Positions 1 to 29,486 of a DNA stretch of 29,486 nucleotides are shown here, piece after piece. The DNA is from a virus, in IMG/VR virus record IMGVR_UViG_3300048032_000044, positions 1 to 29,486 of that record; one strand, given 5' to 3'. Position 1 is the first letter of the stretch. Each line of letters begins with the position of its first letter. Position numbers and translations under genes: made by a program. Under the pieces are notes generated by a model. The model did no database searches. It saw nothing but the letters and a program-made list of their open reading frames with translations, and was not told where the DNA came from.

Positions 1-1177
1 GTGGTATAGATGTTCTATGACATTCAATGCTACTAATAACAACTTGATTTATTTCTATTGTGCAGGTGCTAATGGAGATGTAGGAATTACTACAACAGGC
101 GATAACATCTACATCCAAGATGCCCAACTTGAGCAGGGACTTGTAGCAAGAGATGTTATCACTACAACTACTGCTGCCGTATACGGAGGTATTACAGACA
201 ATACTCCAAGATTAGATTATACGGATAGTTCGTGTCCTGCACTATTGTTAGAGCCATTGAGGACTAACAATGTTCCTCATTCCGAATACCATCAAGGAAC
301 TATTGCTGCGGTAACAAGAACCTACAATACATCTGACACTCTTTCTCCAGAGGGAGTTTATAATGCAGTAAAATATGAGGTAAACGCAAACAATAGCGAC
401 CCTTATTTAAGAGTATTTAATATACCGACATCGGGGAATAGTGCTACATTTTCATTGTATGTTAAGGGAGCAAGTGGTCAATTATTCTCTATGATTTTAG
501 GGAGAGATGGCTATAATGAATTAGAGTATGAGGCTTTTAGTTTAGATGGTACTTGGCAAAGACTTGATATTTCAAAGACATTCACTACAACACCAACTAC
601 ATTGACTATTGGAGCAGAGTTTAGTCATAGTTCCGATGATGGTGTGTTAGGTCAAGAATACTATTTGTATGGTCTACAAGTAGAAGCAGCATCCTACGCA
701 ACATCCTACATACCTACCTATGGGAGTAGTGTGAGTCGTGTATTAGATTCATTAGGTTCTAATGACCTTCAAGCAAGTGGTGTAACCAATAATTCAACAG
801 GTTGGACTTACATTGTAAAGGGAACATTCAACGGAAACGGAGCAGCAGGAAACAACATATTAGTGCAAAGAGATGAGGGTGGATTCTTCTATCGTTATGG
901 TTCATCTTTTGGTTTTAGCGGAGCAACTAAAGGATATTGGACTGAATTTAATCCTAATGGTGGCTTTGCTTATATATGGGATGGTACTCAATTAAGAGTT
1001 CGTAGAGGCGGTTCGGATATTAGAACTATATCTGCTGCCGACATTGGATGGAGTGCAGGAGGTACTTCTAATTGGACTATCAATTATGTCTCTATTGCTC
1101 GTGTATCATTTGAGTTAGAGAACGCATTTATATTCAATCAAGCATTAACAAACGAAGAAATTGACTCATTAGTATAA
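1..1177 (+). CDS. Receptor-binding tail fibre, C-terminal part (5' end outside window)
   Basis: Open from the first bases: codons before the first ATG (position 17) read W-Y-R-C-S and align with W-Y-R-V-W in the fibre at 27707, so the real start lies upstream. Visible parts, in order: the end of a jelly-roll-like module with IYIQDAQLEQG (about 110-142), a PRLDY...CPALLLEP linker (about 210-256), a second module ending YGLQVEAASYATSYIPTYG (about 670-726), then a concanavalin/LamG-like domain ending in the usual ALTNEEIDSL. Such modules bind sugars in phage fibres; receptor binding at the tail tip is inferred. No GATC occurs in it. A paralogue starts at 27707. Confidence 0.75.
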   Translation, partial: WYRCSMTFNATNNNLIYFYCAGANGDVGITTTGDNIYIQDAQLEQGLVARDVITTTTAAVYGGITDNTPRLDYTDSSCPALLLEPLRTNNVPHSEYHQGTIAAVTRTYNTSDTLSPEGVYNAVKYEVNANNSDPYLRVFNIPTSGNSATFSLYVKGASGQLFSMILGRDGYNELEYEAFSLDGTWQRLDISKTFTTTPTTLTIGAEFSHSSDDGVLGQEYYLYGLQVEAASYATSYIPTYGSSVSRVLDSLGSNDLQASGVTNNSTGWTYIVKGTFNGNGAAGNNILVQRDEGGFFYRYGSSFGFSGATKGYWTEFNPNGGFAYIWDGTQLRVRRGGSDIRTISAADIGWSAGGTSNWTINYVSIARVSFELENAFIFNQALTNEEIDSLV

Positions 1178-1179
1178 CT

Positions 1180-1551
1180 ATGAAAACATTTAGAAAATAC
1201 TCATTCGGCTCTAAAGGAGCAGCAACAACTAAAATCAACGCATTAGGATTAGACGAGGATTCTAACCCTACGCACTCTCACGCCATTGTTCATCTTGGAC
1301 ACTTGGTAGAGACTGAAGGTACATACGATGACGAAGGAAACGAACTCACCGCACCTGTACTATCTTCTACCTACCATATAGATGTTCTATGGGATGGTGA
1401 GCCTGTTGAGTCTTGGGATAGTGCTATGGTATGGTGTGCGCCATTAGGCGTTCATACTTTCGGTTCATCTTCTGCTATTGCGGAATGGACAGAGGCTTGT
1501 AAGGAGTTGCATCCTGAATACTTCCCTGAACCTGAGGAGGAGTTAGTATAA
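1180..1551 (+). CDS. Small fibre-associated protein of unknown function
   Basis: A 123-residue soluble protein starting three bases after the fibre stop, so probably translated with it. It is acidic, especially at the C-terminus (PEPEEELV), and rich in Ser, His and Trp, with no signal peptide or membrane helix. The compact mixed sequence with VLWDGEP and VWCAPLGVHTFG suggests a small beta-rich fold. Position directly behind a receptor-binding protein suggests a fibre chaperone or cap, but nothing in the sequence proves this. It shares the GATC-free composition of the fibre. Confidence 0.6.
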   Translation: MKTFRKYSFGSKGAATTKINALGLDEDSNPTHSHAIVHLGHLVETEGTYDDEGNELTAPVLSSTYHIDVLWDGEPVESWDSAMVWCAPLGVHTFGSSSAIAEWTEACKELHPEYFPEPEEELV

Positions 1552-1694
1552 TGGGTAAGGACAGATACAATGTCCCACAGGACAAGAGGAGAGGATGCCT
1601 GTGCAAAGATGGGAAGAGATATTCCAGAGAATGTTGCGAAGGTGATTACATGAATCAGGGTATAGGTAACATCACAAAAAATGAAGCTGAGTAA
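1551..1694 (+). CDS. Cysteine-rich 47-residue protein
   Basis: ATG overlaps the TAA of the preceding gene (TAATG) and the end overlaps the endolysin start by 14 bases, so it is tightly coupled on both sides. It contains RRGCLCKDGKRYSRECCEG, four cysteines in a C-x-C...C-C pattern that could bind metal or form disulfides, then NQGIGNIT. Small proteins of this pattern are, to my recollection, common next to fibre and lysis genes in flavobacterial phages. Function unknown. Confidence 0.6.
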   Translation: MGKDRYNVPQDKRRGCLCKDGKRYSRECCEGDYMNQGIGNITKNEAE

Positions 1695-2139
1695 AAACTT
1701 GACATTGGCTGAGGTTACAAAATCAGCAACTGCGGTGCGTAAGGGTATCTCTAACGAGCCTACTATTGAGCATATGCAGAATCTTAAAGAGGTAGCAGAG
1801 AACATCTTTCAACCTTTAAGAGATAAGTTTGCGGTGCCTATTGCTATTACTAGTGGTTATCGTTCGGCTGATCTTAATAAAGCCATTGGCGGTAGTATTA
1901 CCTCTCAGCATTGTAAAGGTCAAGCACTTGATATTGATGCAGATGTATATGGTGGTATAACAAATAAGGAGATCTTTAATTATATTAAGGACTCGCTAGA
2001 CTTTGATCAACTGATTTGGGAGTTTGGTAATAAAAACAACCCATCATGGGTACATTGTAGTTTTATAAGTAACGGCAATCGCAGACAGATCTTACGAGCC
2101 ATTAAAAAAAACGGAAGAACAAGCTATGAACTTTATTAA
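1681..2139 (+). CDS. Endolysin, peptidase M15 family (zinc D,D-/L,D-carboxypeptidase type)
   Basis: A 152-residue single-domain protein of the M15 peptidase family (M15_3-like), which cleaves peptide cross-links in peptidoglycan. Visible motifs: ITSGYRS (about 56-62), the zinc-binding SQHCKGQALDID with His77 and Asp84, and WVHCSF supplying His125. All three expected zinc ligands are present and the length is usual for the stand-alone domain. There is no signal peptide, so it would need the holin-like product downstream (overlapping by 14 bases) to reach the periplasm. A structural role at the tail tip is the alternative, but the neighbours favour lysis. Confidence 0.85.
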   Translation: MKLSKNLTLAEVTKSATAVRKGISNEPTIEHMQNLKEVAENIFQPLRDKFAVPIAITSGYRSADLNKAIGGSITSQHCKGQALDIDADVYGGITNKEIFNYIKDSLDFDQLIWEFGNKNNPSWVHCSFISNGNRRQILRAIKKNGRTSYELY

Positions 2140-4495: not shown

Positions 4496-5005
4496 ATGAA
4501 GAAAGGAAAAGTTGTTAGTGTAACTCCACAAGGAGATTACCAACTAAGAGATGGAAAGACATTGTACAAATTTCAAGTATCGTTTGACAATGGCGATTCG
4601 GGAGAGTATTCATCAGTCAAGCCTGATCAAAGTAAATTTGTTGCAGGTACAGAAGCAGAGTACGAGATTAACTCAACTCAATATGGTAATCGCATTAAGC
4701 CTGTATATAATCAAGGTGGTGGTTTCTCAGGCGGATCTTCTAACTACTCCTCTAAGGGTAGCGATACTCAAGAGATGATAGTACGACAGACTGCTTTAAA
4801 AGCGGCGGTAGACTTTCTAAAAGAGAAACAAGCCAAGAGTACAGATGTGCTTAAAGTAGCAGACTCATTTGTGGAATGGGTACTAAAGTCTAATGAGAAA
4901 GAAGAAACCACATACAATACACACTTCTCATCAAGAGAAGAAAAAATTGAGGTAGCAAACGCTATTGTAAACGGACAAGCAGCAGATGATGATTTACCAT
5001 TCTAG
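4496..5005 (+). CDS. Single-stranded DNA-binding protein-like (OB fold with acidic tail)
   Basis: A 169-residue protein. Residues 1-70 look like a small OB-type barrel (GKVVSVTPQGDYQLRDGKTLYKFQVSFDNG); a Gly/Ser-rich linker follows (GGGFSGGSSNYSS), then a helical section (about 90-130), and the last six residues are DDDLPF. That terminal acidic peptide closely resembles the SSB tip (DDDIPF in many bacteria) that recruits replication and repair partners. The N-terminal half is not a textbook SSB, so a divergent phage SSB or related recombination protein is the best reading. It is followed directly by a terminator. Confidence 0.65.
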   Translation: MKKGKVVSVTPQGDYQLRDGKTLYKFQVSFDNGDSGEYSSVKPDQSKFVAGTEAEYEINSTQYGNRIKPVYNQGGGFSGGSSNYSSKGSDTQEMIVRQTALKAAVDFLKEKQAKSTDVLKVADSFVEWVLKSNEKEETTYNTHFSSREEKIEVANAIVNGQAADDDLPF

Positions 5006-5026
5006 TTGATTGATTGTGTTAGGCAG

Positions 5027-5056
5027 AGAGGGGTAGAAATACTCCTCTTTTTTTTT
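5027..5056 (+). terminator. Intrinsic terminator after the SSB-like gene
   Basis: AGAGGGGTA (5027-5035) pairs with TACTCCTCT (5040-5048) across a GAAA tetraloop, with one G-T wobble, and runs into nine T (5048-5056). A clear factor-independent terminator separating this unit from the helicase operon. Confidence 0.85.
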
Positions 5057-5099
5057 ATCAATATCAGAGATGTTAAAATTCTTTGTTTAAATTAGAGTG
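5057..5099 (+). promoter_or_regulatory. Possible promoter region before the helicase gene
   Basis: The only gap between the terminator and the helicase operon. It contains TTGTTTAAATTAGA (5083-5096), nearly the same as TTGTTTAATTAGA at 22371-22383 before the scaffold and capsid genes. A new transcript must begin about here, but the box does not fit TAnnTTTG well. Confidence 0.35.
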
Positions 5100-6023
5100 A
5101 TGATACACAAACACATAATACAATCAAATAAAACCCTTCGCTACTTAGAGATGGCAAGGGAGGGTAAGATCTCACAAGCATCAAGATTTGGTGTAAATCA
5201 AATAGATGACTTTCTAAGATTTAAAAAAGGAAACTTTATTGTGGTTACAGGACACGCAAATGTTGGTAAGACACATACGATGACCTATCTACAATTGCTA
5301 CATACCTTAGAGAACGGCACACGATGGTTAATCTACTCATCAGAGAATGAAGTACAATCATTACAGCGTAAGCTAATAGAGTTTCTAGCAGGTAAACCAA
5401 TTAATCAGATAGATGAAGCAACATTTTGGAGACATCACGCTTTTGTTGAGGGACATTGGGCATTTTTAGATAGTGAGTTAATCGTTAATGCTTTTGAACT
5501 TTTAGATATAGCAAGAGAGATCTATGATGCGTGGGAGTTTCAAGGAATGATGATAGATCCTTATAATTCACTAACCATTAGAAAAGAAGATCTCAAGGGA
5601 ATCTCTACACACGAATACCACTACGAAGTTACATCGCATATAAGAAAGTTTTGTAAGGAGTATGGTATAACCACAATACTAAATACCCACCCTGCAACAC
5701 AAGCCTTAAGACAGATTCATAAGGGATCACACGAATACACAGGACATACAATGCCACCTATGGCTTCAGATGTAGAGGGCGGTGGTAAGTTTGTAAATAG
5801 ATCAGATGAGTTTTTTGTAATACATAGGTACACGCAACACAATACAGATTGGATCTATACAGATATTCATGTAAGAAAAGTAAAGGAACTTGAAAGCGGT
5901 GGTAGACCAACGCCCTTAGATAGCCCTATTAGAATGGAATCTACAAAGGGAAATAGTGGGTTTAGAATTAATGGTTTAGATTTGATAACTAAAGAAACGA
6001 TAATTGATGGATCTCCATTTTGA
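5100..6023 (+). CDS. DnaB-like replicative helicase (SF4, RecA-type core)
   Basis: Start set at ATG 5100; a GTG lies immediately before it. The 307-residue product is a RecA-type core only: Walker A GHANVGKT (51-58), a Glu in SSENE (about 82), Walker B MMIDPYN with Asp153, LNTHPA (about 200) in the usual polar motif, and a late DIHVRKVKELESGGRP stretch typical of DnaB and Twinkle helicases. The N-terminal primase-interacting domain of full DnaB (about 450 aa) is missing, so it is either a minimal helicase or relies on host DnaB/DnaG. It heads the replication operon behind a terminator. Confidence 0.8.
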   Translation: MIHKHIIQSNKTLRYLEMAREGKISQASRFGVNQIDDFLRFKKGNFIVVTGHANVGKTHTMTYLQLLHTLENGTRWLIYSSENEVQSLQRKLIEFLAGKPINQIDEATFWRHHAFVEGHWAFLDSELIVNAFELLDIAREIYDAWEFQGMMIDPYNSLTIRKEDLKGISTHEYHYEVTSHIRKFCKEYGITTILNTHPATQALRQIHKGSHEYTGHTMPPMASDVEGGGKFVNRSDEFFVIHRYTQHNTDWIYTDIHVRKVKELESGGRPTPLDSPIRMESTKGNSGFRINGLDLITKETIIDGSPF

Positions 6024-8991: not shown

Positions 8992-9758
8992 TGTTAGATG
9001 GCTCAGATTATGATCAGCAATGGCTGATTGATAAAGCAAGAGGCGATGAGTTCTATTACGGAGCACTAAATAAGTTAGCGTTATCATCTTCTAGCTGTAA
9101 GATGCTATTGGATAGTCCTAAGACATTCCATAATGTTATGAAGTACGGATCTAATGATTCAAGCCCTGCTCTTTTAATGGGTAGGGTAATTCATGTCATG
9201 GTTCTAGAGCCTGAAAACTTTGATAAGATCTTTGAGGTTGTAGATGTCGCTTCTAAGAATACTAAGGCCTTTAAAGAGGCTCAGCTAGATAATCCTAAGA
9301 CTTGTATCACTAGAAAAGATCTACAAGCAGGAGAGCGTATGGCTGATGCTTTTAATCGTAACGAAGCAGCATTAAGTTACTTAGCAGATGCAGAGTGCGA
9401 AGTACCTATGGTAGATTTAGTAGGCGGCTTTCCGTTTAGAGGCAAAGCAGATATATATAGACAAGGGGAAGTAATAGATCTTAAAACAACAACCGATTTA
9501 AAAGCATTTAAATATAGTGCTGATAAATACGGCTATGATCTACAAGCATACATATACTGCAATCTATTTAAGACCTCTTACAAGGACTTTACATTTATAG
9601 CTTTAGACAAGGGCAGTTGTGATGTTGGTATTTACGACATATCAGAGGAGTTCTACAAGAGAGGAGAGGCTAAATTTAACAGAGCCATTTCTATGTACAG
9701 GGATTTCTTTGTTAGAGGAGAAGACCTAGATACCTATACAATTAGAGGAACATTGTGA
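8991..9758 (+). CDS. RecE-like PD-(D/E)XK exonuclease
   Basis: Start taken at ATG 8991, at the coupled TAATG; ATG 8985 is possible. The 255-residue product matches the RecE/exonuclease VIII-type nuclease family: LLMGRVIHVMVLEP (about 61-74, with the conserved His68), FRGKADIYR with Asp154, VIDLKTTTD with Asp163 and Lys165, and YDLQAYIY with Gln185. These are the expected active-site residues. It would resect double-stranded ends to make 3' tails for annealing. No separate RecT-type annealing protein was recognised; the SSB-like protein may help. Confidence 0.75.
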   Translation: MLDGSDYDQQWLIDKARGDEFYYGALNKLALSSSSCKMLLDSPKTFHNVMKYGSNDSSPALLMGRVIHVMVLEPENFDKIFEVVDVASKNTKAFKEAQLDNPKTCITRKDLQAGERMADAFNRNEAALSYLADAECEVPMVDLVGGFPFRGKADIYRQGEVIDLKTTTDLKAFKYSADKYGYDLQAYIYCNLFKTSYKDFTFIALDKGSCDVGIYDISEEFYKRGEAKFNRAISMYRDFFVRGEDLDTYTIRGTL

Positions 9759-10000
9759 AGAAGCATACCAAGATCTATATGAAGCACTTTAATTATGTGC
9801 TAGATGACTTTATACCTTGCGAGATCTGCGGAAGCAGAGCAGTAGACATACATCATATAGAGAACAGAGGATCAGGAGGTGCTAAAGACAAAGACAGAAT
9901 AGAGAACTTAATGGCTGTATGTAGACCTTGCCATCTAATGTATGGTGATGTACCAAGTAAGGTAGAATGGTTACAGCAAATCCACGATAGATTGTTATGA
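9755..10000 (+). CDS. HNH-type endonuclease/zinc-finger protein
   Basis: The GTG start at 9755 overlaps the exonuclease stop (GTGA); ATG 9779 would remove eight residues and keep all motifs. The 81-residue product has CEIC (Cys22, Cys25), VDIHHIENRG (His33/34), ENLMAVC and CRPCH (Cys56, Cys59, His60), the two zinc-binding pairs and His core of HNH nucleases. Lying next to the RecE-like gene it probably acts in recombination or nicking. HNH proteins that aid packaging usually sit beside terminase genes, unlike here. Confidence 0.7.
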   Translation: MKKHTKIYMKHFNYVLDDFIPCEICGSRAVDIHHIENRGSGGAKDKDRIENLMAVCRPCHLMYGDVPSKVEWLQQIHDRLL

Positions 10001-10854: not shown

Positions 10855-11592
10855 ATGGAAAGAGTAGATATTAAACAGGTACGCAGAAATCCTGACAATC
10901 CAAGAATCATTAAGGATTATAAGTTTAACAAGTTAGTAAAGTCCATTAAGGAGTTTCCACAGATGTTAGATCTTAGACCAATTGTGGTTAATAAAGATAT
11001 GATTGTTTTAGGTGGTAATATGAGATTGAAGGCTTGTGAAGCCGCAGGTCTTAAAGAAGTGCCTGTAATTTTTGCTGATAACCTTACAGAAGAACAACAG
11101 AAAGAATTTATCATAAAAGACAACTCATCTTTTGGGGAGTGGGATTGGGATATACTTGCTAACGAATGGGATGTAGACTTAATACAAGAATGGGGATTAG
11201 ATCTTCCTGTGCTGTTTGAAGACGAAGAAGCAACAACCGAAGATGAACCATATACAAAAAAAGTTGATGCGCCTACATACACACCAAGCGATGAAGCACC
11301 TGATCTTTCAGACCTATATGATGACACAAAAGCAAAGAAATTTATATCAAAGATTAAGCAGTCGGATGTTGATCCAAACATTAAAGACTTCTTAATGAGT
11401 GCTGCTCTACGACATATGGTGTTTAACTACAATAAGATTGCAGACTTTTACGCTCACGCAGATAAAGATGTGCAAGAGTTAATGGAGGATATTGCCTTAA
11501 TTATTATAGACTTTGAAAAAGCTATTGAATTAGGGTATGTAAACATTAACGAACAGATTGCAGAACAATACCTAGATGAACATGCAGAATAA
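10855..11592 (+). CDS. ParB/sulfiredoxin-fold domain protein linked to DNA modification
   Basis: A 245-residue protein. Residues about 5-90 form a ParB N-terminal-type domain: NPDNPRIIK, a KSIKEF helix, RPIVVNKDMIVLGGNMRLKA with GGNMR at 53-57, and KEVPVIFAD. Such domains bind nucleotides and, in phages, often accompany DNA methyltransferases or base-modifying enzymes rather than plasmid partition. The linker (about 125-165) is acidic, and the C-terminal part has AALRHMVFNYNKIADFYAHA and later helices. No parA or parS-like context exists. It overlaps the glycosyltransferase gene by 17 bases, suggesting joint function. Confidence 0.65.
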   Translation: MERVDIKQVRRNPDNPRIIKDYKFNKLVKSIKEFPQMLDLRPIVVNKDMIVLGGNMRLKACEAAGLKEVPVIFADNLTEEQQKEFIIKDNSSFGEWDWDILANEWDVDLIQEWGLDLPVLFEDEEATTEDEPYTKKVDAPTYTPSDEAPDLSDLYDDTKAKKFISKIKQSDVDPNIKDFLMSAALRHMVFNYNKIADFYAHADKDVQELMEDIALIIIDFEKAIELGYVNINEQIAEQYLDEHAE

Positions 11593-12439
11593 TAACGAAG
11601 CGGTAGTATTTATATTATCTTATGGTAGATCTGAAAAGGTATACACATACAACAGCCTAAAGAAACAAGGCTACACAGGCAGAATATGCTTTATATGCTC
11701 TGACGATGATAAAGAGTTGCCAAACTACAAGAAGCTATATCAAGAAGATGTCTTTGTATTTAGCAAAGAAGCGTATAAGGATAAGTTTGACATAGGAGAT
11801 AACTTTGATGACAACAGGGTTGTTGTGTTTGCTCGTAATGCAGTATTTGATATTGCTGAGAAAAATGGTATTGAGTATTTTATAGTTTTAGATGATGATT
11901 ACACGCAGTTTAGATATACCGCAGATGAGTATGGTACATATTTAACCAAGAGCCGAAGCATAAAAGATCTAGACAAATCCTTTAAGTTACTTCTTGACTT
12001 CTATAAGAAAACAAACGCAAAGACTTTATGTATTGCTCAAGGTGGCGATTTTATAGGTGGCGAAAACTCTAGTGTATTTAAAAAGAAGCTATCAAGAAAG
12101 GCAATGAACTTCTTTGTATGCTCTACGAAACGAAGATTTGAATTTATAGGTAGAATAAATGAAGATGTAAATACTTATGTAAGATACGGCACAACAGGTG
12201 ATATATTTCTTACCATATGTGATCTAAGGTTAGAGCAGTTAGATACGCAGAGCAATTCAGGCGGTCTTACAGAGTTCTATTTAGATGGCGGAACATATGT
12301 AAAATCATTTTATACATTGCTTTTTTCTCCTTCTTGTACAAAGATTACATTAATGGGAAACAAGAACAAAAGACTACATCATCAGATTAGATGGAACAAT
12401 GCAGTTCCTAAGATTATAGATGAAAAACACAAGAAATAA
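11576..12439 (+). CDS. Glycosyltransferase, resembling TET-associated (phage DNA-modifying) type
   Basis: A 287-residue protein with a GT-A-like layout: VVFILSYGRSEKVYT strand and helix at the N-terminus, YTGRICFICSDDDKE, a conserved VVVFARNAVFDIA (about 82-94), then YFIVLDDDYTQFRY with the metal- and sugar-nucleotide-binding DDD at 106-108. The order GRS...ARN...DDD fits TET-associated glycosyltransferases, which decorate hydroxymethylated pyrimidines in phage DNA. Coupling to a ParB-domain gene supports DNA as substrate. No TET/JBP, hydroxymethylase or methyltransferase lies in the window, so the acceptor is unknown; protein or surface-sugar targets remain possible. Confidence 0.55.
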   Translation: MNMQNNNEAVVFILSYGRSEKVYTYNSLKKQGYTGRICFICSDDDKELPNYKKLYQEDVFVFSKEAYKDKFDIGDNFDDNRVVVFARNAVFDIAEKNGIEYFIVLDDDYTQFRYTADEYGTYLTKSRSIKDLDKSFKLLLDFYKKTNAKTLCIAQGGDFIGGENSSVFKKKLSRKAMNFFVCSTKRRFEFIGRINEDVNTYVRYGTTGDIFLTICDLRLEQLDTQSNSGGLTEFYLDGGTYVKSFYTLLFSPSCTKITLMGNKNKRLHHQIRWNNAVPKIIDEKHKK

Positions 12440-12440
12440 T

Positions 12441-12788
12441 ATGACAAATAGTGACATAAGTAAAAAGGCAATGTTAGAAGCCCTTGAGAAATCTCTAGGT
12501 GTGGTTACATCGGCTTGTAGAGCAGTAGACATATCAAGGGAAACTCATTACAGATGGATGCGTCAAGATGCTGATTACAAACAAGCAGTAGATGATCTAT
12601 CCAATGTTGCACTAGACTTTGCTGAATCACAATTACATCAACAGATAAAGAAGGGTGTTCCTACATCTACAATCTTCTATTTAAAGACTAAGGGCAAACG
12701 AAGAGGGTATGTAGAAAGACAAGAGATAGCCCATGAAGGGCTAAAGACCTTTGAGATAGAAGAAGTGGATGAGCAAGATCCAAGTTAA
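12441..12788 (+). CDS. terS: Terminase small subunit
   Basis: ATG 12441 chosen because it follows the glycosyltransferase stop by one base; ATG 12420 would overlap that gene. The 115-residue product has an N-terminal helix-turn-helix (MLEALEKSLGVVTSACRAVD then ISRETHYRWMRQD) that would recognise the packaging site, a helical middle, and GVPTSTIFYLKTKGKRRGYV, a segment typical of small terminase subunits in this phage group. The acidic tail may contact the large subunit. It lies directly before terL, overlapping by 20 bases. Confidence 0.8.
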   Translation: MTNSDISKKAMLEALEKSLGVVTSACRAVDISRETHYRWMRQDADYKQAVDDLSNVALDFAESQLHQQIKKGVPTSTIFYLKTKGKRRGYVERQEIAHEGLKTFEIEEVDEQDPS

Positions 12789-13923
12789 TAAGGTATATGG
12801 TCATCTAAAGAGATCAGACAAAAAAATCATAGTAGAGCAAGGTGGTACTCGTAGTGGTAAGACCTACAACATTCTGCTTTGGATCATATTCTACTATTGC
12901 GGTAAGAATATAGGTAAAACCATTACCATTACTAGAAAGACATTTCCTGCTGTAAGATCTTCTGTAATGAGGGACTTTATAGAGATCCTAAAAGGATCTA
13001 ATCTATACAAAGAGGAGAACCATAACAAGTCCAACCACGAGTATATGCTTAATGGTAATATGATTGAATTCATATCTATGGATCAGCCTCAGAAGATCAG
13101 AGGTAGAAAAAGGGATCTTGCTTTCTTAAATGAGGCTAACGAATTGACTTTTGAAGATTGGCAGCAAATCGTATTTCGTACTAATGGCAGAATCATACTT
13201 GACTATAACCCTTCAGATACCTTTCATTGGATTTACGATAGAGTAATACCAAGAGATGATGCTGACTTCTATCAAACAACATATAGGGACAATCCATTTC
13301 TTGACCAAACTATCATAGATGAGATTGAAAGGCTAAAGCAAACAGATGAGCATTATTGGAGAGTTTATGGATTAGGGGAAAGAGGTACTAATAGGGCACA
13401 GGTATTTCAATTTACAACCATTCAGCAGATTCCTGAAACTGCAAAGTTTCTATCGTTTGGTCTTGACTTTGGTTTTACAAATGATCCTAGTGCATTGGTT
13501 GGCTGCTATCAAGAGGGTGATAACCTTTATTTTAAAGAACTACTATACAGCACTAATCTTACCAATCAAGATCTATCTAGAGAGTTCAGTAAACTAGAGA
13601 TAGGAAGGTATGATGAGATCTTTGGCGATTCATCAGAGCCTAAGAGTATAGAAGAACTGCACAGAATGGGTTGGAATGTAAAGCCTACTCAGAAGGGCGC
13701 AGATTCTGTAAACGCAGGTATTGATATGCTTAAACGATACAAGATTCATATAATAGGATCCAACTTAATGAAAGAGATGGAGAACTATAAATGGCTTGAA
13801 GATAAAAATGGTAACTTGCTAAACAAGCCTGAAGATAAATACAACCACCTTATAGATGCATTAAGATATGGGGTATACAATAAACTAAGCAAACCGAATT
13901 ATGGTAGATACACAATCCGTTAG
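12769..13923 (+). CDS. terL: Terminase large subunit (ATPase and nuclease)
   Basis: A 384-residue protein of the PBSX/Terminase_3-like group. ATPase motifs: Walker A GGTRSGKT (25-32), ITITRKTFPA, Walker B RDLAFLNEANEL, and LDYNPSDTFHW. Nuclease motifs: FGLDFGFTNDP (about 230), FGDSSEPKS (about 285) and HLIDALRYG (about 360), each bearing the metal-binding Asp expected of the RNase H-like nuclease. It drives DNA into proheads at the portal and cuts it. Complete and of usual length for the compact members. The C-terminal codons overlap the tail chaperone gene by 23 bases. Confidence 0.92.
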   Translation: MSKIQVNKVYGHLKRSDKKIIVEQGGTRSGKTYNILLWIIFYYCGKNIGKTITITRKTFPAVRSSVMRDFIEILKGSNLYKEENHNKSNHEYMLNGNMIEFISMDQPQKIRGRKRDLAFLNEANELTFEDWQQIVFRTNGRIILDYNPSDTFHWIYDRVIPRDDADFYQTTYRDNPFLDQTIIDEIERLKQTDEHYWRVYGLGERGTNRAQVFQFTTIQQIPETAKFLSFGLDFGFTNDPSALVGCYQEGDNLYFKELLYSTNLTNQDLSREFSKLEIGRYDEIFGDSSEPKSIEELHRMGWNVKPTQKGADSVNAGIDMLKRYKIHIIGSNLMKEMENYKWLEDKNGNLLNKPEDKYNHLIDALRYGVYNKLSKPNYGRYTIR

Positions 13924-14551
13924 CATAGAGATTCCTGAGAATCTATCAGATGTAAAACTAAGTACATACAAAAGGTTTATTCTATTAGCCAATGAAGAGA
14001 ATGGCGATGAGATGGCTTTGTTTCAGTTCTGTGGTTTAACCCCTGCACAGCAGGAGGGTATGAAGAAAAAAGATCTTGATGAAATTAGAAATCAGATAGG
14101 TAATGTATTAGCTGAGAAACCTAACCTAGTAAAGTCATTTACATTTAAGGGTAAGGAGTATGGCTTTCATCCTAAGATAGAAGATATATCAATGGGGGAA
14201 TATGTAGACCTAGATACATACCTAAAAGACCCATACAAGAACGCTGAGAAGGTTTTAGGTATATTATATAGACCTATTACCAAGAAGATATTTGGAAGGC
14301 ATAGCATAGAGAATTATGATCCTGATATACATGATGGCTTAGGCTTTCAAGATCTATCTGCTGACATCTTTCTAGGTTGTCTGCTTTTTTTTTATCGTAT
14401 CGCAACCAACTTACAGATAACTTTCCTACAATCTTTGGAGAAGGAGGGGAAGAGGGATATGATGCTCAATCTAACTTCTCAAGAAAGTGGGGATGGTATG
14501 GAGCAGTACATCAAATTGCTAAAGGAGATCTCCTACAATTTGAAAAGATAA
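13901..14551 (+). CDS. Tail assembly chaperone, short form (gpG-like)
   Basis: A 216-residue protein beginning VSIEIPENLSDVKLSTYKRF, with a central helical section and an ending SGDGMEQYIKLLKEISYNLK that looks like genuine protein. A run of nine T (14385-14393) lies in its codons 162-165 and allows a -1 shift into the reading frame ending at 14646. Paired short and long products are the conserved arrangement of tail assembly chaperones (lambda G and GT), which coat the tape measure before the tube forms. In most siphophages the gene lies just before the tape measure; here it follows terL directly. Confidence 0.65.
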   Translation: MVDTQSVSIEIPENLSDVKLSTYKRFILLANEENGDEMALFQFCGLTPAQQEGMKKKDLDEIRNQIGNVLAEKPNLVKSFTFKGKEYGFHPKIEDISMGEYVDLDTYLKDPYKNAEKVLGILYRPITKKIFGRHSIENYDPDIHDGLGFQDLSADIFLGCLLFFYRIATNLQITFLQSLEKEGKRDMMLNLTSQESGDGMEQYIKLLKEISYNLKR

Positions 14552-14646
14552 CCGAACTACCACTTCGTACCTGTCTTACATTCTTAGAGTATGAGATTGA
14601 CAAGGCTGAGGTAGAGAAATCTATAATGAAAAAAAATTCGCAATAA
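13901..14646 (+). CDS. Tail assembly chaperone, long form by -1 frameshift (gpGT-like)
   Basis: Slippage on T-TTT-TTT (14386-14392) joins residues 1-164 of the short form to 84 residues read one base back, starting LSYRNQLTDN, for about 248 aa. The extension contains NFSRKWGWYGAVHQIAKGD, LLQFEKITELPLRTCLTFLE and a charged tail. That looks like real folded protein, and no good start codon exists for it as a separate gene; only TTG/CTG codons lie ahead of the T run. Expression through a -1 shift is therefore the natural reading. The level of shifting cannot be told from sequence. Confidence 0.7.
14386..14392 (+). promoter_or_regulatory. -1 ribosomal frameshift slippery heptamer
   Basis: In the frame of the short chaperone the codons read CTG-CTT-TTT-TTT-TAT, so the heptamer is T TTT TTT in the X XXY YYZ form. 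Both tRNAs can re-pair after slipping one base. Downstream purine-rich sequence (14431-14460) could form structure, but no clear stem was worked out. Confidence 0.7.
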
Positions 14647-14652
14647 CCTCTG

Positions 14653-14701
14653 TTATTAAAAAATAGTGTTTATATTAGCACTATAATTAACAAAGAGAGA
14701 T
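14653..14701 (+). promoter_or_regulatory. Promoter-like element (copy B)
   Basis: Positions 14653-14676 repeat 8611-8634 with one difference. The box TATATTAG (14671-14678) partly fits TAnnTTTG, and a leader ending AACAAAGAGAGAT runs into ATG 14702. It starts the small accessory unit between tail genes. Confidence 0.6.
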
Positions 14702-14965
14702 ATGGCAAATTTTAACAAGTACGATTATTTAGAAGATTTAAAAGACACTATTGAGCAGAGTGATTCTGGAGATGTTTGGGATCTAATCCACCAAGAGATT
14801 GACAGAGAATGTATCTACTACGCAGACTGCTTTGAGATCGTAAGAGCATTACACATTACTGATTGGAAGGATAACGAGTTCGGAGAGATTACGAGCATAA
14901 CGCAACTTGCGTATGTTTCTTTGTATGAGTTCGTTTCTGAGAACCTAGAAATACCTGCAGAATGA
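14702..14965 (+). CDS. Accessory protein of unknown function (87 aa)
   Basis: An acidic, helical 87-residue protein with VWDLIHQEIDRECIYYADCF, ALHITDW and SITQLAYVSLYEFV. Proteins of this pattern occur as hypothetical accessory genes in many phages; no activity is known to me. It is the first gene after promoter-like copy B and is coupled to the next gene by an ATGA overlap. Placement in its own unit within the tail region suggests a function in the infected cell rather than in the virion. Confidence 0.6.
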   Translation: MANFNKYDYLEDLKDTIEQSDSGDVWDLIHQEIDRECIYYADCFEIVRALHITDWKDNEFGEITSITQLAYVSLYEFVSENLEIPAE

Positions 14966-15168
14966 ATTTGTACGAAAAATTAAGCCCAGAAGCGATTAAG
15001 GTATTGGATCAGGAAATGATCCTCTACCCAATCTCAACAACTACATTAATCAATGCATTACAAAAGAACAGATACTGCTTAGATCTTACTCTGAATGAAT
15101 CTTCAAGAGTAGCATCGGTATTCGGCTTTGAATGTACATTGACTAACATTATAAACTTCTTTGAGTAA
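14962..15168 (+). CDS. Accessory protein of unknown function (68 aa)
   Basis: A 68-residue protein (LYEKLSPEAIKVLDQEMI, YPISTTTLINALQKNRYCLD) predicted to be mainly helical, coupled to the genes on both sides by start-stop overlaps. No family recognised. Part of the promoter-to-terminator unit 14653-15365. Confidence 0.55.
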   Translation: MNLYEKLSPEAIKVLDQEMILYPISTTTLINALQKNRYCLDLTLNESSRVASVFGFECTLTNIINFFE

Positions 15169-15308
15169 TGGGATATCTAGACTGGGAATTAGAAAGCCAT
15201 CAGTATTACCAAGACACTACCTGTGGCGTTTGTGGAGAGTGTACAGATCCTGATTACTTTGATTGTAGATGTGAAGAAGAAGAAGATGAGATACATTTAG
15301 GTATCTAG
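15168..15308 (+). CDS. Small cysteine-rich acidic protein (46 aa)
   Basis: Starts at TAATG overlapping the preceding stop. It carries TCGVCGECTDPDYFDCRCEE: five Cys in 17 residues, suitable for one zinc site, followed by an acidic stretch. It is the last gene of the accessory unit and lies 25 bases before a terminator stem. Function unknown. Confidence 0.5.
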   Translation: MGYLDWELESHQYYQDTTCGVCGECTDPDYFDCRCEEEEDEIHLGI

Positions 15309-15333
15309 TGGTGGTTCGCTAGATGGTTTGGTT

Positions 15334-15365
15334 GAGGAGGTCTGTGGTGGATCTCCTCTTTTTTT
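15334..15365 (+). terminator. Intrinsic terminator closing the accessory unit
   Basis: GAGGAGGTC (15334-15342) pairs with GATCTCCTC (15350-15358), with one G-T wobble, followed by seven T (15359-15365). Confidence 0.8.
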
Positions 15366-15367
15366 AT

Positions 15368-15393
15368 CCCTATTTTAGCGAATAGGGTTTTTT
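15368..15393 (+). terminator. Second hairpin plus T-run just before a start codon
   Basis: CCCTATT (15368-15374) pairs perfectly with AATAGGG (15381-15387) over a six-base loop, followed by six T (15388-15393). It ends six bases before the ATG at 15400, so it may act as a backup terminator or fold in the leader of the next gene. Confidence 0.6.
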
Positions 15394-15399
15394 AATTGT

Positions 15400-15855
15400 A
15401 TGAAGAAAGGATATTACCAAATAACAGAGGCACTTGAGAGTGCAGCATCAGCAAACGACCAAATAAACCAAGTAACTTGGGGGGACATATTTGATCTTGA
15501 CTTTAGGAAAATGGATATGTTTCCTATTGCTCATATAATGACAGGTACAGCGACACTAAGTGAGCGTACTATTACATATGAGTTTGATTTGTTAGCGATG
15601 GACATAGTGGATTACAGCAAAGATCCTAAAGACTTATACGAGGGTAATATGACCAAACAAGATATTTACCACAGAACCCTTGCAGCAATCTCTGAGATCT
15701 TAGCAACTTTTAGAAGAGGTACTGAGTATGATGCGTATTTTAGATTGATTAATGATCCTATTGCAGAGCCGTTTGACGAGGATATGGAGGCTAATATCTG
15801 TGGTTGGAAAGCTACACTACAAATAGAAGCAATAAACCCTAATAACATCTGCTAG
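15400..15855 (+). CDS. Probable tail terminator / tail-completion protein
   Basis: A 151-residue protein: ITEALESAASANDQINQVTW, then GDIFDLDFRKMDMFPIAHIM, TYEFDLLAMDIVDYS, and a C-terminal half ending GWKATLQIEAINPNN. This resembles the structural family found next to the gp10-like protein in Bacteroidota siphophages, where a tail terminator or completion protein is expected. It begins the second tail block, right behind two hairpins. Assignment rests on order and general pattern, not on a diagnostic motif. Confidence 0.5.
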   Translation: MKKGYYQITEALESAASANDQINQVTWGDIFDLDFRKMDMFPIAHIMTGTATLSERTITYEFDLLAMDIVDYSKDPKDLYEGNMTKQDIYHRTLAAISEILATFRRGTEYDAYFRLINDPIAEPFDEDMEANICGWKATLQIEAINPNNIC

Positions 15856-16353
15856 ATGAAGGGAGAGAATACACAAGCCGCATTAAATAAGTTTGGTAAA
15901 TACTTAGTTAAAGAATCTAGAAAGAACCTAACAAGGTTAAAGAAAAGAAACTCTAACGGCTTATATGATTCCCTTAATTACGATATAAAGGCAATGCCTA
16001 ACTCTTTTGAGTTTGACTTCTTAATGAAGGAATATGGTGAGTGGGTAGATAAAGGGCGAAAGCCAGGCAAGAACCCACCTTTCTCAGCAATTAGAAAATG
16101 GGTAGAGCAGCGTAGGATTCAATTTAGAAGTAATAAAGGCAAGTTTGTAACATACGATTCAACAGCTTGGGCGATAACCAAGAGTATTGGTAAAAAAGGA
16201 ATTAAGCCTACAAACTTTTACAGCAGACCATTTAAGCTAGGTTATGCTAAATTGCCTAATGAAATCGTAGAGGCTTACGCTCTAGATGTAGAAGAATTTT
16301 TGGAGTTTACAATAGATAAATTAAACGAACAATACAAAGATGGCAGTAATTAG
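15856..16353 (+). CDS. HK97 gp10-like tail-completion/neck protein
   Basis: A 165-residue protein abutting the preceding gene. Basic N-terminal helix (KYLVKESRKNLTRLKKR), strands around YDIKAMPNSFEFDF, then YGEWVDKGRKPGKNPPFSAI and ITKSIGKKGIKPTNFYSRPF. The pattern of a Y.xxVxxGxxP core, a P-rich turn and a GIxPxxFY end is common to gp10-like neck and minor tail proteins that join head and tail. Reaction none; structural role inferred. Confidence 0.6.
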   Translation: MKGENTQAALNKFGKYLVKESRKNLTRLKKRNSNGLYDSLNYDIKAMPNSFEFDFLMKEYGEWVDKGRKPGKNPPFSAIRKWVEQRRIQFRSNKGKFVTYDSTAWAITKSIGKKGIKPTNFYSRPFKLGYAKLPNEIVEAYALDVEEFLEFTIDKLNEQYKDGSN

Positions 16354-17650
16354 TCCTAGTGGTTTAGTAGCAGCAAGATCACCTTTGTTCTTTACTTGGG
16401 ATGGCTCAAATAGAGACAGACTTGATGGTATGGAATTAAAGATCTATGCATGGAGTGGTGAAAAGACCGCAAAACCTGCAACACCTGTATATACAATAAA
16501 CAGAACAACAGGCTTTGTAGATTTCTATCCTACTGCTGATATAGCACCTTTGCTAGAGAATGAATTTATCAATCGTATTAGCAAACTGCATACAGATACA
16601 ATTACTTTTAACTCTCCTGATTCGCAGTTATTTGTCCAGATAGATTATACCTTAGATTGGTTTAATACAGAATCTTCTCCATTAGGAGCAGGAACTGACA
16701 CAGGATCATCAGAAGTGTTTATCGTAACCTATGGTTATGGTAAGTTCGTAGAGGGAGCAAATCACAAGATACAAGGTCCATTCTTACAAGAGAAATCAAG
16801 ATATGCTTACGAGAAGGATGCGTTTATGTTACCTATCTATCTAGGTCTACAAGGAGAGGGCTTGGATATTATCTATGGTTATCGTGATCGTGTGGTAGCT
16901 GATGGAGGGGTTGTAGAAGCGTTATCGTGTGCAAACATAGGTTTAGCTACCATTAAGATATTAAACGATGATGGCACTAGCTATCAGTACGCAGTAACAG
17001 AAGGTAATGTCTACGAAACAAAAGCAGAAGAAAGAGTATTACTTTTCCCTTCAGGAATTGCTAACCTTTCAAATTGGAAAGCAAATAATGGTCTTTCAGG
17101 AACCGCTCCTTATAACACAGATTATTATGATGTTCAGTTATTGGATGGATCTAATAACATAATTGATTCTGTAAGAATCTACAATGAGTGTGAGCCTAAA
17201 TACGATCCTATTTCTCTATACTTTGTAAATAGGTATGGTACTTGGGATTATGTAACATTCTTAAAGAGATCGGATGTTGATTTATCTAGTAGCAAGGAAA
17301 CATACAGATCCACAATAGGTAATGCTTCAGCATCAGGCTACACTTGGGGTAATCAAGCAAGAGGTCTAAGATCTTACAACCACGAGGTTACTCATAGAAT
17401 GACTTTAAATACAGGCTTTGTTTCTGAAGATTATAGTGAAGTGATGGAGCAACTTCTAATGAGCGAGTATGTATTAATGGTATATGATCGTACAACTACA
17501 AGATCAGGAACTGAATACGACATATCTCAATCTCAGAGAGCAGTAAACATACAGACAGAATCATTAAGACTTCAGAAGCATATCAATGACAAGACTATTA
17601 ATTACACGATAGATATTGAGATGGCTAACCCTGAGAATGCAATGTTATGA
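16340..17650 (+). CDS. Tail structural protein (conserved Bacteroidota phage type)
   Basis: A 436-residue beta-rich protein that overlaps its predecessor by 14 bases and the next gene by 4. It starts SPSGLVAARSPLFFTWDG, contains GFVDFYPTADIAPLLE, and has a distinctive CEPKYDPISLYFVNRYGTWD followed by YVTFLKRSD and a C-terminal DISQSQRAVNIQTESLRLQK region. The CxY.PxxxxFxNRYG.WD motif recurs, as I recall, in tail proteins of flavobacterial phages. Likely a distal tail or baseplate component, since it precedes another tail protein and the tape measure. Confidence 0.55.
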   Translation: MAVISPSGLVAARSPLFFTWDGSNRDRLDGMELKIYAWSGEKTAKPATPVYTINRTTGFVDFYPTADIAPLLENEFINRISKLHTDTITFNSPDSQLFVQIDYTLDWFNTESSPLGAGTDTGSSEVFIVTYGYGKFVEGANHKIQGPFLQEKSRYAYEKDAFMLPIYLGLQGEGLDIIYGYRDRVVADGGVVEALSCANIGLATIKILNDDGTSYQYAVTEGNVYETKAEERVLLFPSGIANLSNWKANNGLSGTAPYNTDYYDVQLLDGSNNIIDSVRIYNECEPKYDPISLYFVNRYGTWDYVTFLKRSDVDLSSSKETYRSTIGNASASGYTWGNQARGLRSYNHEVTHRMTLNTGFVSEDYSEVMEQLLMSEYVLMVYDRTTTRSGTEYDISQSQRAVNIQTESLRLQKHINDKTINYTIDIEMANPENAML

Positions 17651-19638: not shown

Positions 19639-19781
19639 TGGACTTGGGTTTTATAATTGAGCAACTTCAGAAACAGAAGGCTACCGATCAGGATCTGATG
19701 ATAGCTAAAGGGGAATGGAAGATCATTACTAAATGGAGTGAAGCAAAAGAACAGATTAGATGTCAGTTAAGAAAGAAATAG
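19638..19781 (+). CDS. 47-residue ORF before the tape measure
   Basis: ATG overlaps the preceding TGA, and the end overlaps the tape measure start by 22 bases. The product is charged and helical (GFIIEQLQKQKATDQDLMIA, KWSEAKEQIRCQLRKK). Coupling on both sides supports translation; it could help tape-measure assembly but nothing proves it. Confidence 0.45.
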   Translation: MDLGFIIEQLQKQKATDQDLMIAKGEWKIITKWSEAKEQIRCQLRKK

Positions 19782-21385: not shown

Positions 21386-21387
21386 AT

Positions 21388-22344: not shown

Positions 22345-22396
22345 AAATGACCCAAAATTGTAATAAATCGTTGTTTAATTAGAAAAGTTCAGAAAA
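22345..22396 (+). promoter_or_regulatory. Possible late promoter before scaffold and capsid genes
   Basis: A 52-base gap, rare in this region. It contains TTGTTTAATTAGA (22371-22383), almost the same as the box at 5083-5096, followed by an A-rich leader up to ATG 22397. A separate promoter for the abundant scaffold and capsid proteins is plausible, but it has no good TAnnTTTG box. Confidence 0.35.
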
Positions 22397-23032: not shown

Positions 23033-23050
23033 TTTAAATAAAGAAGAAAA

Positions 23051-23977: not shown

Positions 23978-24001
23978 AAAGTAGTTAATTAATAATTAAA
24001 G

Positions 24002-24036
24002 GGGCAGGTAGGCTAGTGCTTGTCTGCCCTTTTTTT
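24002..24036 (+). terminator. Intrinsic terminator after the capsid gene
   Basis: GGGCAGGTAGGC (24002-24013) pairs with GCTTGTCTGCCC (24018-24029) including three G-T wobbles, with loop TAGT, then seven T (24030-24036). Confidence 0.85.
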
Positions 24037-24048
24037 AATATATAATAT

Positions 24049-24573: not shown

Positions 24574-24598
24574 GATCTAATATTTACAGAATCAAAAA

Positions 24599-24629
24599 AG
24601 CCCTTCCATTACGGAGGGGCTTCTTTTTT
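24599..24629 (+). terminator. Intrinsic terminator after the tail tube gene
   Basis: GCCCTTCC (24600-24607) pairs with GGAGGGGC (24613-24620) with one wobble over ATTAC, flanked by an A-run before and TTCTTTTTT after, so it may work in both directions. Confidence 0.8.
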
Positions 24630-24652
24630 GGTAGCAATGCTACCTAAGAGAG

Positions 24653-26842: not shown

Positions 26843-26843
26843 T

Positions 26844-27344
26844 ATGGCTCAGATACTATTTGTCAGCCCTGCTGATGTTATAAAAAGAACAGGAATCAAT
26901 GGGAATGTAGATCGTGATCAGATGATTCAGTTCATTAAGATTGCTCAGGATATTCATATTCAGAATATATTAGGTACAAAGCTATTTAATAAGATCTCAA
27001 GTGATATTAATGGCGATACCTTGACAGGCGATTATTTAACGCTTTTCACGAACTATATTCAGGATATGGTAATACACTACTCCGCGATAGAGATACTGCC
27101 TTACATACACTTTAAAGTAGCAAATGGAGGTATATACACTAAAGGTGCAGAGAATGGTCAGAGTGTAACAAAGGAAGATCTTGATTACTTAGTCCAAAAG
27201 GAAAGAGATATTGCAGAACACTACGCAAGAAGGTTTGTAGATCACATGGCTTATTATAGTTCTAAATATCCTGAGTACAATACATCATCAAATGATGATA
27301 TGTACCCTAGTAAAAATCAAAACTTTAATGGATGGGTTTTATAG
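26844..27344 (+). CDS. Head-tail connector (adaptor, DUF6712/gp6-like)
   Basis: A 166-residue helical protein that starts one base after the portal stop. It begins LFVSPADVIKRTGINGNVDR, with helices DQMIQFIKIAQDIHIQNILG, FTNYIQDMVIHYSAIEILPY and LVQKERDIAEHYARRFVDHM, the layout of gp6-like head completion adaptors that sit under the portal. The Asn/Ser/Pro-rich tail (YPEYNTSSNDDMYPSKNQNF) may contact the neck. Confidence 0.65.
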   Translation: MAQILFVSPADVIKRTGINGNVDRDQMIQFIKIAQDIHIQNILGTKLFNKISSDINGDTLTGDYLTLFTNYIQDMVIHYSAIEILPYIHFKVANGGIYTKGAENGQSVTKEDLDYLVQKERDIAEHYARRFVDHMAYYSSKYPEYNTSSNDDMYPSKNQNFNGWVL

Positions 27345-27424
27345 TTAAGAAGATCTATAAGCCAAAGGCTTCTAATATTAAGAAGTTAAAGGTGTATCTA
27401 AAAAAACAGAATAAGAATGGGTAA
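27332..27424 (+). CDS. 30-residue Lys-rich ORF
   Basis: Overlaps the connector end by 13 bases and the next gene by 8. The product (MGFIVKKIYKPKASNIKKLK, then VYLKKQNKNG) has eleven Lys in 30 residues. Position and overlaps support translation; function unknown. Confidence 0.4.
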   Translation: MGFIVKKIYKPKASNIKKLKVYLKKQNKNG

Positions 27425-27710
27425 CGGCTACGGAGCAATATATGGAAGCACTTGGTGGGGTTCACAGAACACTATCAACTTCAATGAGATTAGCTACTAC
27501 ATCTATGCGGTAGATGAGTTAAAGACACGAGCATTAGCTGATGGTGCTATTATGGAGGGCTTTGGATGTGCGAGTGAGGCTATCCGTACTATGGGTGAGA
27601 GAGATTCAGCAGAGGCGTTGTTTGATGCTTACAGCGTTAGGGTAGTTGCCGATAGCGGAGCTACGGAGGCAAGAATCTGTACTATTAAAGAAATAAGTTT
27701 ACTACGATGA
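27417..27710 (+). CDS. Small virion-associated protein, unknown
   Basis: A 97-residue protein with a Gly/Trp-rich start (MGNGYGAIYGSTWWGSQNTI), then NFNEISYYIYAVDELKTRAL and a CASEAIRTMGERDSAEALFD helix. Similar MGNGYG..Y..WWG proteins occur before fibres in flavobacterial phages, as I recall, and may link the baseplate to a fibre. Ends at an ATGA overlap with the fibre gene. Confidence 0.5.
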   Translation: MGNGYGAIYGSTWWGSQNTINFNEISYYIYAVDELKTRALADGAIMEGFGCASEAIRTMGERDSAEALFDAYSVRVVADSGATEARICTIKEISLLR

Positions 27711-29486
27711 GTATATACAAGTCAAGCAGTTTAGCAATGCTTCCTACTGCGTATAAGGATGGGAAGTTGTATAGTGTACGCCCTACTCCCGAATATGGAG
27801 CAGAGTCAGTAACTAACGGAACTTTTAATAGTGATTTAAGCGGTTGGACAATAAATAATGCAAATGCAGGAAATGTTGTAGAATGGTCAGCAGGTCAAGC
27901 GCATTTAAAAAGAACTGCGTCAGCAGCAACTGAATTAAGACAATCAACTTTAGTAGTTGGAAAAAAGTATTATGTCAATGTAGATGTAAATATCATAGGT
28001 GACTCAACAGGTGGAGCATTAGAGTATAATGGGAGTGCAAGATTTATTTTTAATCAAGGTGTCAACTCTTTCAAGTTTACTGCTTCTACGACTTTGTTTT
28101 CATTTATCTGTTTAAGCAATACTACCGAATACTACATTGACAATATATCAATTAAAGAGGTGCTTGTTGAGGATGGGGATTTTACATTTAGTAGGGGTTC
28201 AAATCTTGCTGCTACAAGGGTAGATGTTAATGGTCTTATTGAGAAGGGTAGAGAGAATCTCTTGCTGCAATCAAATCAGTTTGATACTACTTGGAGTCAA
28301 TCAGGAGTTACACTTACAGGAGGTCAAACAGGATATGATGGTTCAAGCGATGCTTGGGAAATGGAGAAAGGTGCTTCTTCATATCGTAGAGTTAGCCAAT
28401 CCGTTTCTTTGAGCGGTGTTCAAACATTAAGCGTATATGCAAAAGCGAATACTCAAGATGTTGTTTCATTGTGGTGTGATGGTACATCAACTGACCCTGC
28501 GGTTGCCTTTAATTTAACAACTCTTTCTTGGGTTTATGGTTCATCTAACTACATAGAAAGAGGATACGAATCAGTAGGCAATGGATGGTATAGAGTATGG
28601 ATGTCTTATACAAACACCATTAGTCAAGTTAGAATTTATGTAGGATGGAATGATAGTGATGCAGGTAGCATCTACATCCAAGACGCTCAATTAGAGCAAG
28701 GCTTGGTTGCTACTGACTACATTGAGACAGGAGCATCTACTGCACAAGCAGGTATATTAGAGGACTTACCGAGATTAGATTATAGTGGTGGTGCTTCGTG
28801 TCCTGCTCTTTTACTTGAGCCTCAAAGAACGAATATATTTAGTCATAGTGAATACTTTGGAGGAATGCCATATCAAACTCGTGTAATAATTACCGACAAT
28901 GCTATAGTATCTCCAGAGGGTGTATCTAATGCTGCAAAATTAGTAGCAACAACTGCTAATGGTAGTCACGGAGTTGATTACATACCAAATGTGATAGCAG
29001 CATCTTATTCTATGAGTGTCTATGCTAAAGCAGGGGAAACAAGTAAATTTGTTTTATTAACAAACAATAGAGGCTCTAATGTAGCAAGAGGTTTTGATGT
29101 TAGTAACGGAACTACTTTCGCAAGTGATTTAGGAGGATATGGTGAACCAACTTCATATTCAATCACGGAGGTAGGGAATGATTGGTACTATTGCACTATT
29201 CAATTTAGCAAGACATCTTCAGGTGGTTCAGGTAATGGTATTACATTAACAAATGCTGATGGGCAACACTCATTTACAGGGAATGGAACTGATGGAATGT
29301 ATTTCTATGGGTGGCAGATGGAGCAAGGAAGTTACCCTACAAGTTACATACCTACATATGGTTCTGCGGTTACGAGGTCTTTTGATGAATGTATTGATGC
29401 AGGAGATAATGCAGTAATAGAATCTACGCAAGGAACAATATATGGAGAGCAAAAATCATTAGAGACTGATTTTACTTACAACTACT
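27707..29486 (+). CDS. Receptor-binding tail fibre, N-terminal part (3' end outside window)
   Basis: Open to the last base: 593 complete codons, no stop. N-terminus MSIYKSSSLAMLPTAYKDGK is a likely attachment segment. Then a jelly-roll-like carbohydrate-binding module (NGTFNSDLSGWTIN to YYIDNISIKEV, about residues 42-150), a module ending SIYIQDAQLEQGLVATDYI (nt about 28670-28725), the PRLDY...CPALLLEP linker, and a second module ending MYFYGWQMEQGSYPTSYIPT (about 29300-29355), after which a LamG-like domain appears to begin. Domain order matches the truncated fibre at the window start, so the two are paralogues. No GATC occurs in it. Confidence 0.75.
   Translation, partial: MSIYKSSSLAMLPTAYKDGKLYSVRPTPEYGAESVTNGTFNSDLSGWTINNANAGNVVEWSAGQAHLKRTASAATELRQSTLVVGKKYYVNVDVNIIGDSTGGALEYNGSARFIFNQGVNSFKFTASTTLFSFICLSNTTEYYIDNISIKEVLVEDGDFTFSRGSNLAATRVDVNGLIEKGRENLLLQSNQFDTTWSQSGVTLTGGQTGYDGSSDAWEMEKGASSYRRVSQSVSLSGVQTLSVYAKANTQDVVSLWCDGTSTDPAVAFNLTTLSWVYGSSNYIERGYESVGNGWYRVWMSYTNTISQVRIYVGWNDSDAGSIYIQDAQLEQGLVATDYIETGASTAQAGILEDLPRLDYSGGASCPALLLEPQRTNIFSHSEYFGGMPYQTRVIITDNAIVSPEGVSNAAKLVATTANGSHGVDYIPNVIAASYSMSVYAKAGETSKFVLLTNNRGSNVARGFDVSNGTTFASDLGGYGEPTSYSITEVGNDWYYCTIQFSKTSSGGSGNGITLTNADGQHSFTGNGTDGMYFYGWQMEQGSYPTSYIPTYGSAVTRSFDECIDAGDNAVIESTQGTIYGEQKSLETDFTYNY

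Follow-up and report, generated by a model that had tools for sequence, protein, structure and literature searches.

Introduction

Tail-fibre and receptor-binding genes are swapped between otherwise divergent phages, with their flanks conserved. What distinguishes the case described here from known fibre mosaicism is that the exchanged block is visible by restriction-site content alone, with a purge of several words. Double-stranded DNA phages eliminate short Type II palindromes, sometimes completely (Rusinov et al. 2018, PMC6286503); avoidance is described there per genome, whereas here the set avoided by one module differs sharply from that of the rest of the genome and is common to many phages. 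Plasmids with a broader host range avoid restriction targets more strongly (Shaw et al. 2023, PMC10359461), and our case would be alike in that more hosts go with more avoidance, although the whole plasmid is the unit there and a few-gene phage cassette would be the unit here. According to excerpts of a study of mycobacteriophages, tetranucleotide usage reveals outlier regions, and GATC is over-represented genome-wide in subcluster B3 (Siranosian et al. 2015, PMC4841201); unlike the present case, a fibre-specific or multi-palindrome desert is not reported in those excerpts. Fibre-specific site avoidance was likewise not found reported in the literature that we searched, the coverage of which was incomplete, so novelty is unproven. 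Site avoidance and fibre mosaicism are each known, but we found no description in that literature of the two combined, as a module that has a multi-word avoidance of its own. The GATC desert presented below is real and is general among these uncultured, probably marine phages; cassette exchange is its main explanation.

A fibre block without GATC

The window is the whole of IMG/VR record IMGVR_UViG_3300048032_000044, 29,486 bases classed as linear. Its 181 GATC sites have start positions that run from 1870 to 27352, and the GATC-free ends (1869 and 2134 bases) are its two longest GATC-free stretches, the third longest being 663 bases. A preliminary description of this DNA had reported that 1-1869 and 27356-29486 lack GATC, and a direct count agrees; its hand count of 16 sites in 12781-14640 was exact on recount.

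The right half of the desert (27356..29486) starts after the last GATC (27352-27355), 8 bases past the stop of the last core gene ahead of it (26844..27344, + strand, phrog_35048). It contains a small gene that precedes the fibre gene (27417..27710, +) and is 96.6% identical at the nucleotide level to its copy in G016, a phage of another lineage (cores about 77%), followed by a tail-fibre gene (27707..29485, +; phrog_5939, tail protein) that is open at the record end. The left half (1..1869) begins with a second phrog_5939 tail-fibre gene (2..1177, +), open at the record start, of which 143-741 is 98.3% identical to a fibre gene of G023. Both fibre genes contain none of six words: GATC, CTAG, CATG, TCGA, ACGT and CCGG. 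Next comes a small gene that moves with the fibre (1180..1551, +); phages that otherwise have unrelated or distant genes carry homologues 76-97% identical to it in amino acid sequence. The endolysin gene (1681..2139, +; phrog_894, Peptidase_M15_3) is the first gene beyond the cassette and has both GATC and CTAG. The left half of the desert runs into it as far as the first GATC, and the true cassette edge on this side lies between the end of the 1180-1551 ORF and position 1870.

In G003, G006, G016, G019, G023 and G037 this block runs unbroken from the 26844-type gene to the endolysin, and judging by this gene order the window's two ends very probably adjoin in the genome. In-frame circular closure of the record was not obtained: the two open fibre ORFs are out of frame across the record ends, and the record therefore probably breaks inside a repeated fibre domain.

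We compared the GATC counts with several expectations. The fibre block has none against 11.8 expected from its own trinucleotides, and against a mean of 8.6 (minimum 1) in synonymous-codon shuffles of its four ORFs; re-encoding the block proteins with interior codon usage gives a mean of 7.9. None of the 20,000 shuffles reached zero, and the interior, with 168 sites against 103 in the synonymous shuffle (Markov O/E 1.27), exceeded rather than equalled its expectation; these were the two points on which the preliminary description had staked its contrast. Its remark on aspartate codons also held, although the counts are small: ahead of a C, GAT is used 0 times and GAC 3 times in the fibre, against 69 and 13 times in the core. 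An artefact of protein composition, codon usage or chance would draw on the fibre being poorer than the core in GAT and ATC trinucleotides, and the raw density does overstate the contrast for that reason; the zero itself is not so explained. Against an artefact stand the shuffles and the re-encoding, the repetition of the pattern in 108 fibre ORFs (below), and a distant fibre homologue in Nonlabens phage P12024S, which has 5 GATC and 7 CTAG, so that the family permits both words; the core of this phage is much less purged. We consider this explanation almost certainly wrong.

The avoidance is not confined to GATC. In synonymous shuffles the fibre block genes are expected to hold 10.8 CTAG and 5.5 CATG and hold neither, while CTAG in the core is at expectation (80 versus 80). 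ACGT, TCGA and CCGG are missing from the whole window (44, 46 and 11 expected), and CATG, AGCT and GGCC are depleted in it. The phage core (1870..27355) accordingly combines all 181 GATC sites (7.1 per kb) and near-expected CTAG with the complete loss of three words. Thus, the window phage avoids many short palindromes throughout, and the fibre block adds two, GATC and CTAG. The earlier reading of the avoidance as GATC-specific has to be given up, the wider fibre pool being depleted of all six words together. Two other words stood out across the window: ACAGT, expected 20.5 times, does not occur, and CCAG/CTGG is strongly depleted (15 versus about 125, Markov); these are a hint that non-palindromic or interrupted words are avoided too.

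Could GATC instead have a positive role in the core (packaging, methylation or replication) that the fibre does not need? In the window's lineage, core GATC is more frequent than synonymous shuffling predicts, whichever of the three codon phases is taken (77/60, 36/17 and 47/22 in G000; also seen in G001 and G004). Against such a role, two relatives (G027 and G028) lack GATC altogether, CTAG and CATG are missing from the block as well, and CTAG is not enriched in the core. A functional need for GATC, which the preliminary description had offered in terms of packaging, methylation or modification, is thus unsupported and in our estimate very improbable; the GATC-free ~32 kb of G027 and G028 are not proof for the window's own lineage.

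Fibre genes of related phages share the purge

A megablast of window positions 12001-29486 against known phages gave no match, nor did a back-translated pattern search with the second fibre ORF by itself turn up a relative. When eight fibre proteins were aligned and the alignment was used to search IMG/VR, over 500 relatives came back; from the loci covered we assembled a pool of 108 non-redundant fibre ORFs (185 kb) and compared it with the other ORFs on the same contigs. Observed over expected counts in the pool were 15/435 for GATC, 41/645 for CTAG and 5/241 for CATG, while the control palindromes TGCA, AATT and TTAA lay at 0.88-1.01 of expectation in the fibre ORFs of both contig groups. 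On contigs that share core genes with the window, GATC was 8/212 in fibres and 2393/2244 in other ORFs; on contigs without window-type core genes it was 7/223 and 291/757. Of the 46 fibre ORFs that accompany a GATC-tolerant core, 41 were free of the word (10/189 overall). The desert is therefore not a one-off event in the window's phage: it is present in nearly all relatives examined. The palindromes fall below a codon-preserving expectation, as in restriction-site avoidance, and six to nine words are purged in fibres, with TGCA, AATT, TTAA, ATAT and TATA near normal, so that not every palindrome is avoided. The purged words are known 4-bp Type II specificities.

The edges of the desert follow genes. 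Across 42 GATC-rich contigs the fibre block held 11 GATC in 84 kb, compared with about 6.6 per kb outside, and a non-fibre ORF flanked by two fibre genes accounts for 4 of these 11. In G003 (4801-5331) and G006 (12658-13191), fibre genes free of GATC are separated by non-fibre ORFs that contain 4-5 sites. These ORFs bear on a positional explanation, in which the fibre slot would be the leading part of the DNA on entry into the cell, arriving when no modification or anti-restriction proteins have yet been made, and would for that reason alone have to be site-free. The constant location of the slot in the window's phage family, always between the 26844-type gene and the endolysin, is what one would expect from a positional effect, but GATC-bearing ORFs within the slot are not, and the 27417-type gene occurs both in a GATC-free form (window, G016) and in a GATC-rich form (7 sites in G010). 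The same fibre genes are also purged in other gene contexts, and we regard a positional cause as very improbable.

Core profiles differ by lineage

We surveyed the cores of 80 terminase relatives and 18 longer contigs, and found that their word content varies by lineage. Cores of the window's group keep GATC and CTAG and miss ACGT, TCGA and CCGG. G020 and several short contigs lack GATC; G019, L077 and L080 have lost nearly all CATG, with ACGT kept in L077 and L080. Two phages are purged throughout, G027 (31.9 kb) with zero of the six words and G028 (31.6 kb) with a single ACGT. At the other extreme, G032 (30.9 kb), the terminase of which is about as distant from the window's as those of G027 and G028, has a core rich in GATC, CTAG, TCGA, ACGT and CCGG and lacking CATG, and its two fibre ORFs hold one GATC. 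Fibre depletion of the six words holds regardless of core profile: the 25 large fibre ORFs on terminase-relative contigs (37 kb) gave GATC 3/86, CTAG 7/120, CATG 0/45, TCGA 1/76, ACGT 0/101 and CCGG 0/38.

Two further patterns were seen in the cores. CTAG and AGCT are lost jointly in one lineage (G010, G012, L027, L028, L032, L036 and L040), nearly all copies being gone from the cores of G010 and G012 (0/37 and 0/81 in G012), which suggests that two specificities were met at once. In the 16-kb G018 (L186), GATC is confined to the ends, with counts of 11 and 4 over the first 2 kb and of 1 and 1 at the opposite end; here an internal GATC boundary of another kind, located outside the fibre, is seen.

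The fibre module is exchanged as a cassette

A single large near-identical transfer could be mapped end to end. G016 15366-19556 matches L193 5269-9459 at 99.05% over 4191 nucleotides, between flanks whose core matches are 67-73% identical at the nucleotide level, as expected of an exchanged fibre module. The GATC desert of G016 (15372-19658) coincides with the L193-matching block, and CTAG sites at 15327 and 19570 bound the block too; the only copy of any of the six words in L193 itself (10.6 kb) is one GATC. The limits of this one desert are, then, those of a transferred cassette. There are further partial matches, for example between the window and G023. Identity of the 1180-type gene showed no correlation with portal identity (rho -0.19, p 0.19, n 50), compared with rho of 0.65 for the MCP and 0.76 for the terminase; module relatedness does not mirror core relatedness, as in a horizontally exchanged module. 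The direction of cassette transfer we infer from parsimony.

The preliminary description had proposed a recently exchanged fibre cassette from a phage under GATC-specific restriction. The sharp-edged exchanged cassette stands, as the G016/L193 pair demonstrates; the GATC specificity does not, six words being avoided; and restriction would be the agent only by the reasoning given below.

Sites are slowly regained after transfer. With the six words pooled, fibres hold 129 of 997 expected in word-tolerant carriers and 7 of 917 in purged carriers (p = 3e-28, a test that counts related ORFs as independent, so that the true p is larger). Slow regain in tolerant phages fits relaxed selection after arrival.

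Origin of the purged cassettes

We consider it likely that the desert is a tail-fibre cassette which moves between phages faster than the remaining genome and bears the restriction-site profile of another phage population. The cassette would consist of the fibre gene or genes with a small gene on each side, swapped between phages. Its pool lacks six words beyond any effect of protein and codon usage, while carrier cores lack lineage-specific subsets only. Type II restriction in hosts of that source population would have removed the words, and probable sources are phages like G027, G028 and L193, in which the six words are missing genome-wide. A clean cassette in a tolerant recipient would then be a slowly fading imprint, the desert decaying after arrival, and the window's phage would be such a recipient for GATC and CTAG. 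Given how consistent the purging is, a purely passive imprint requires fast cassette turnover, and ongoing selection on the cassettes is possible.

An alternative without any special donor lineage is that cassettes visiting many hosts are purged by the restriction specificities of each carrier, their profile being the sum of these bans. Over 16 palindromes, fibre O/E tracks the lineage minimum of core O/E (rho 0.85, p 2e-5) rather than the median (0.47, p 0.06), as such a filter predicts, but 16 words are few for a rank test and several of them are banned everywhere. The purge extends to the fibres of phages with hardly purged cores (G032), and the stronger target avoidance of broader-host-range plasmids (Shaw et al. 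2023, PMC10359461) also speaks for it. Regain of sites in tolerant carriers implies that selection is relaxed there, however, and a source among the fully purged G027, G028 and L193 is simpler. Our data do not separate the two models. We lean towards the fully purged source because of L193 and the decay, and hold accumulation over many carriers to be rather unlikely. A related and somewhat more plausible idea, which we advance tentatively, is that receptor-binding cassettes are their own units of selection and collect the restriction bans of the whole network, a "restriction passport" acceptable in any host; if this is true, the site content of a cassette records the exchange history of the network and its direction.

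Under either the source model or the filter, restriction would be the selective agent. We base this on the type of word avoided, on known avoidance in phages and broad-host-range plasmids, and on the presence of the DpnII, MjaI and HpaII families. Among 295 genomes sampled, 9 scored above the cut-off for PF04556 (DpnII), 17 for PF09568 (RE_MjaI) and 14 for PF09561 (RE_HpaII), specificity being read from the family name. The genomes belong to the class of G045, a Bacteroidetes MAG holding a distant terminase relative, and this class is tied to our phages by inference, from the occurrence of terminase relatives in Flavobacterium and Bacteroides phages.

Restriction-site content is usually treated as a whole-genome property; in these phages it varies by gene with sharp edges, and it flags imported genes. 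This gives an alignment-free view of fibre exchange, in which the direction of flow and, via slow regain, a rough recency can be asked. It also offers a testable tie between receptor specificity and restriction: a phage with a newly gained fibre may meet the enzymes of a new host with that fibre clean and its core unclean.

Other loci

At 10855-12439 the window carries a ParB_N-domain gene followed by a TET-associated glycosyltransferase gene (PF20691). At the same locus in G001, G003, G004, G006, G010, G018 and G020, interchangeable DNA-modification genes stand behind a ParB_N gene: Mom (PF25680) in G001, Tet_JBP with an amidotransferase, ADDT and a kinase in G004, and, in G010, an N6_N4 methylase fused to ParB_N; in G006 a C5-cytosine methylase (PF00145) lies near the locus. 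By its gene content, the ParB_N locus is a predicted swap site for anti-restriction chemistry. We considered whether swapped DNA-modification genes set the tolerance of GATC, and found no simple relation, since Mom-type genes occur in the GATC-rich G001 and the GATC-free G020 alike. Finally, a small HNH endonuclease gene (PF01844) lies at 9755-10000 of the window and is about 80% identical in amino acid sequence in many relatives.
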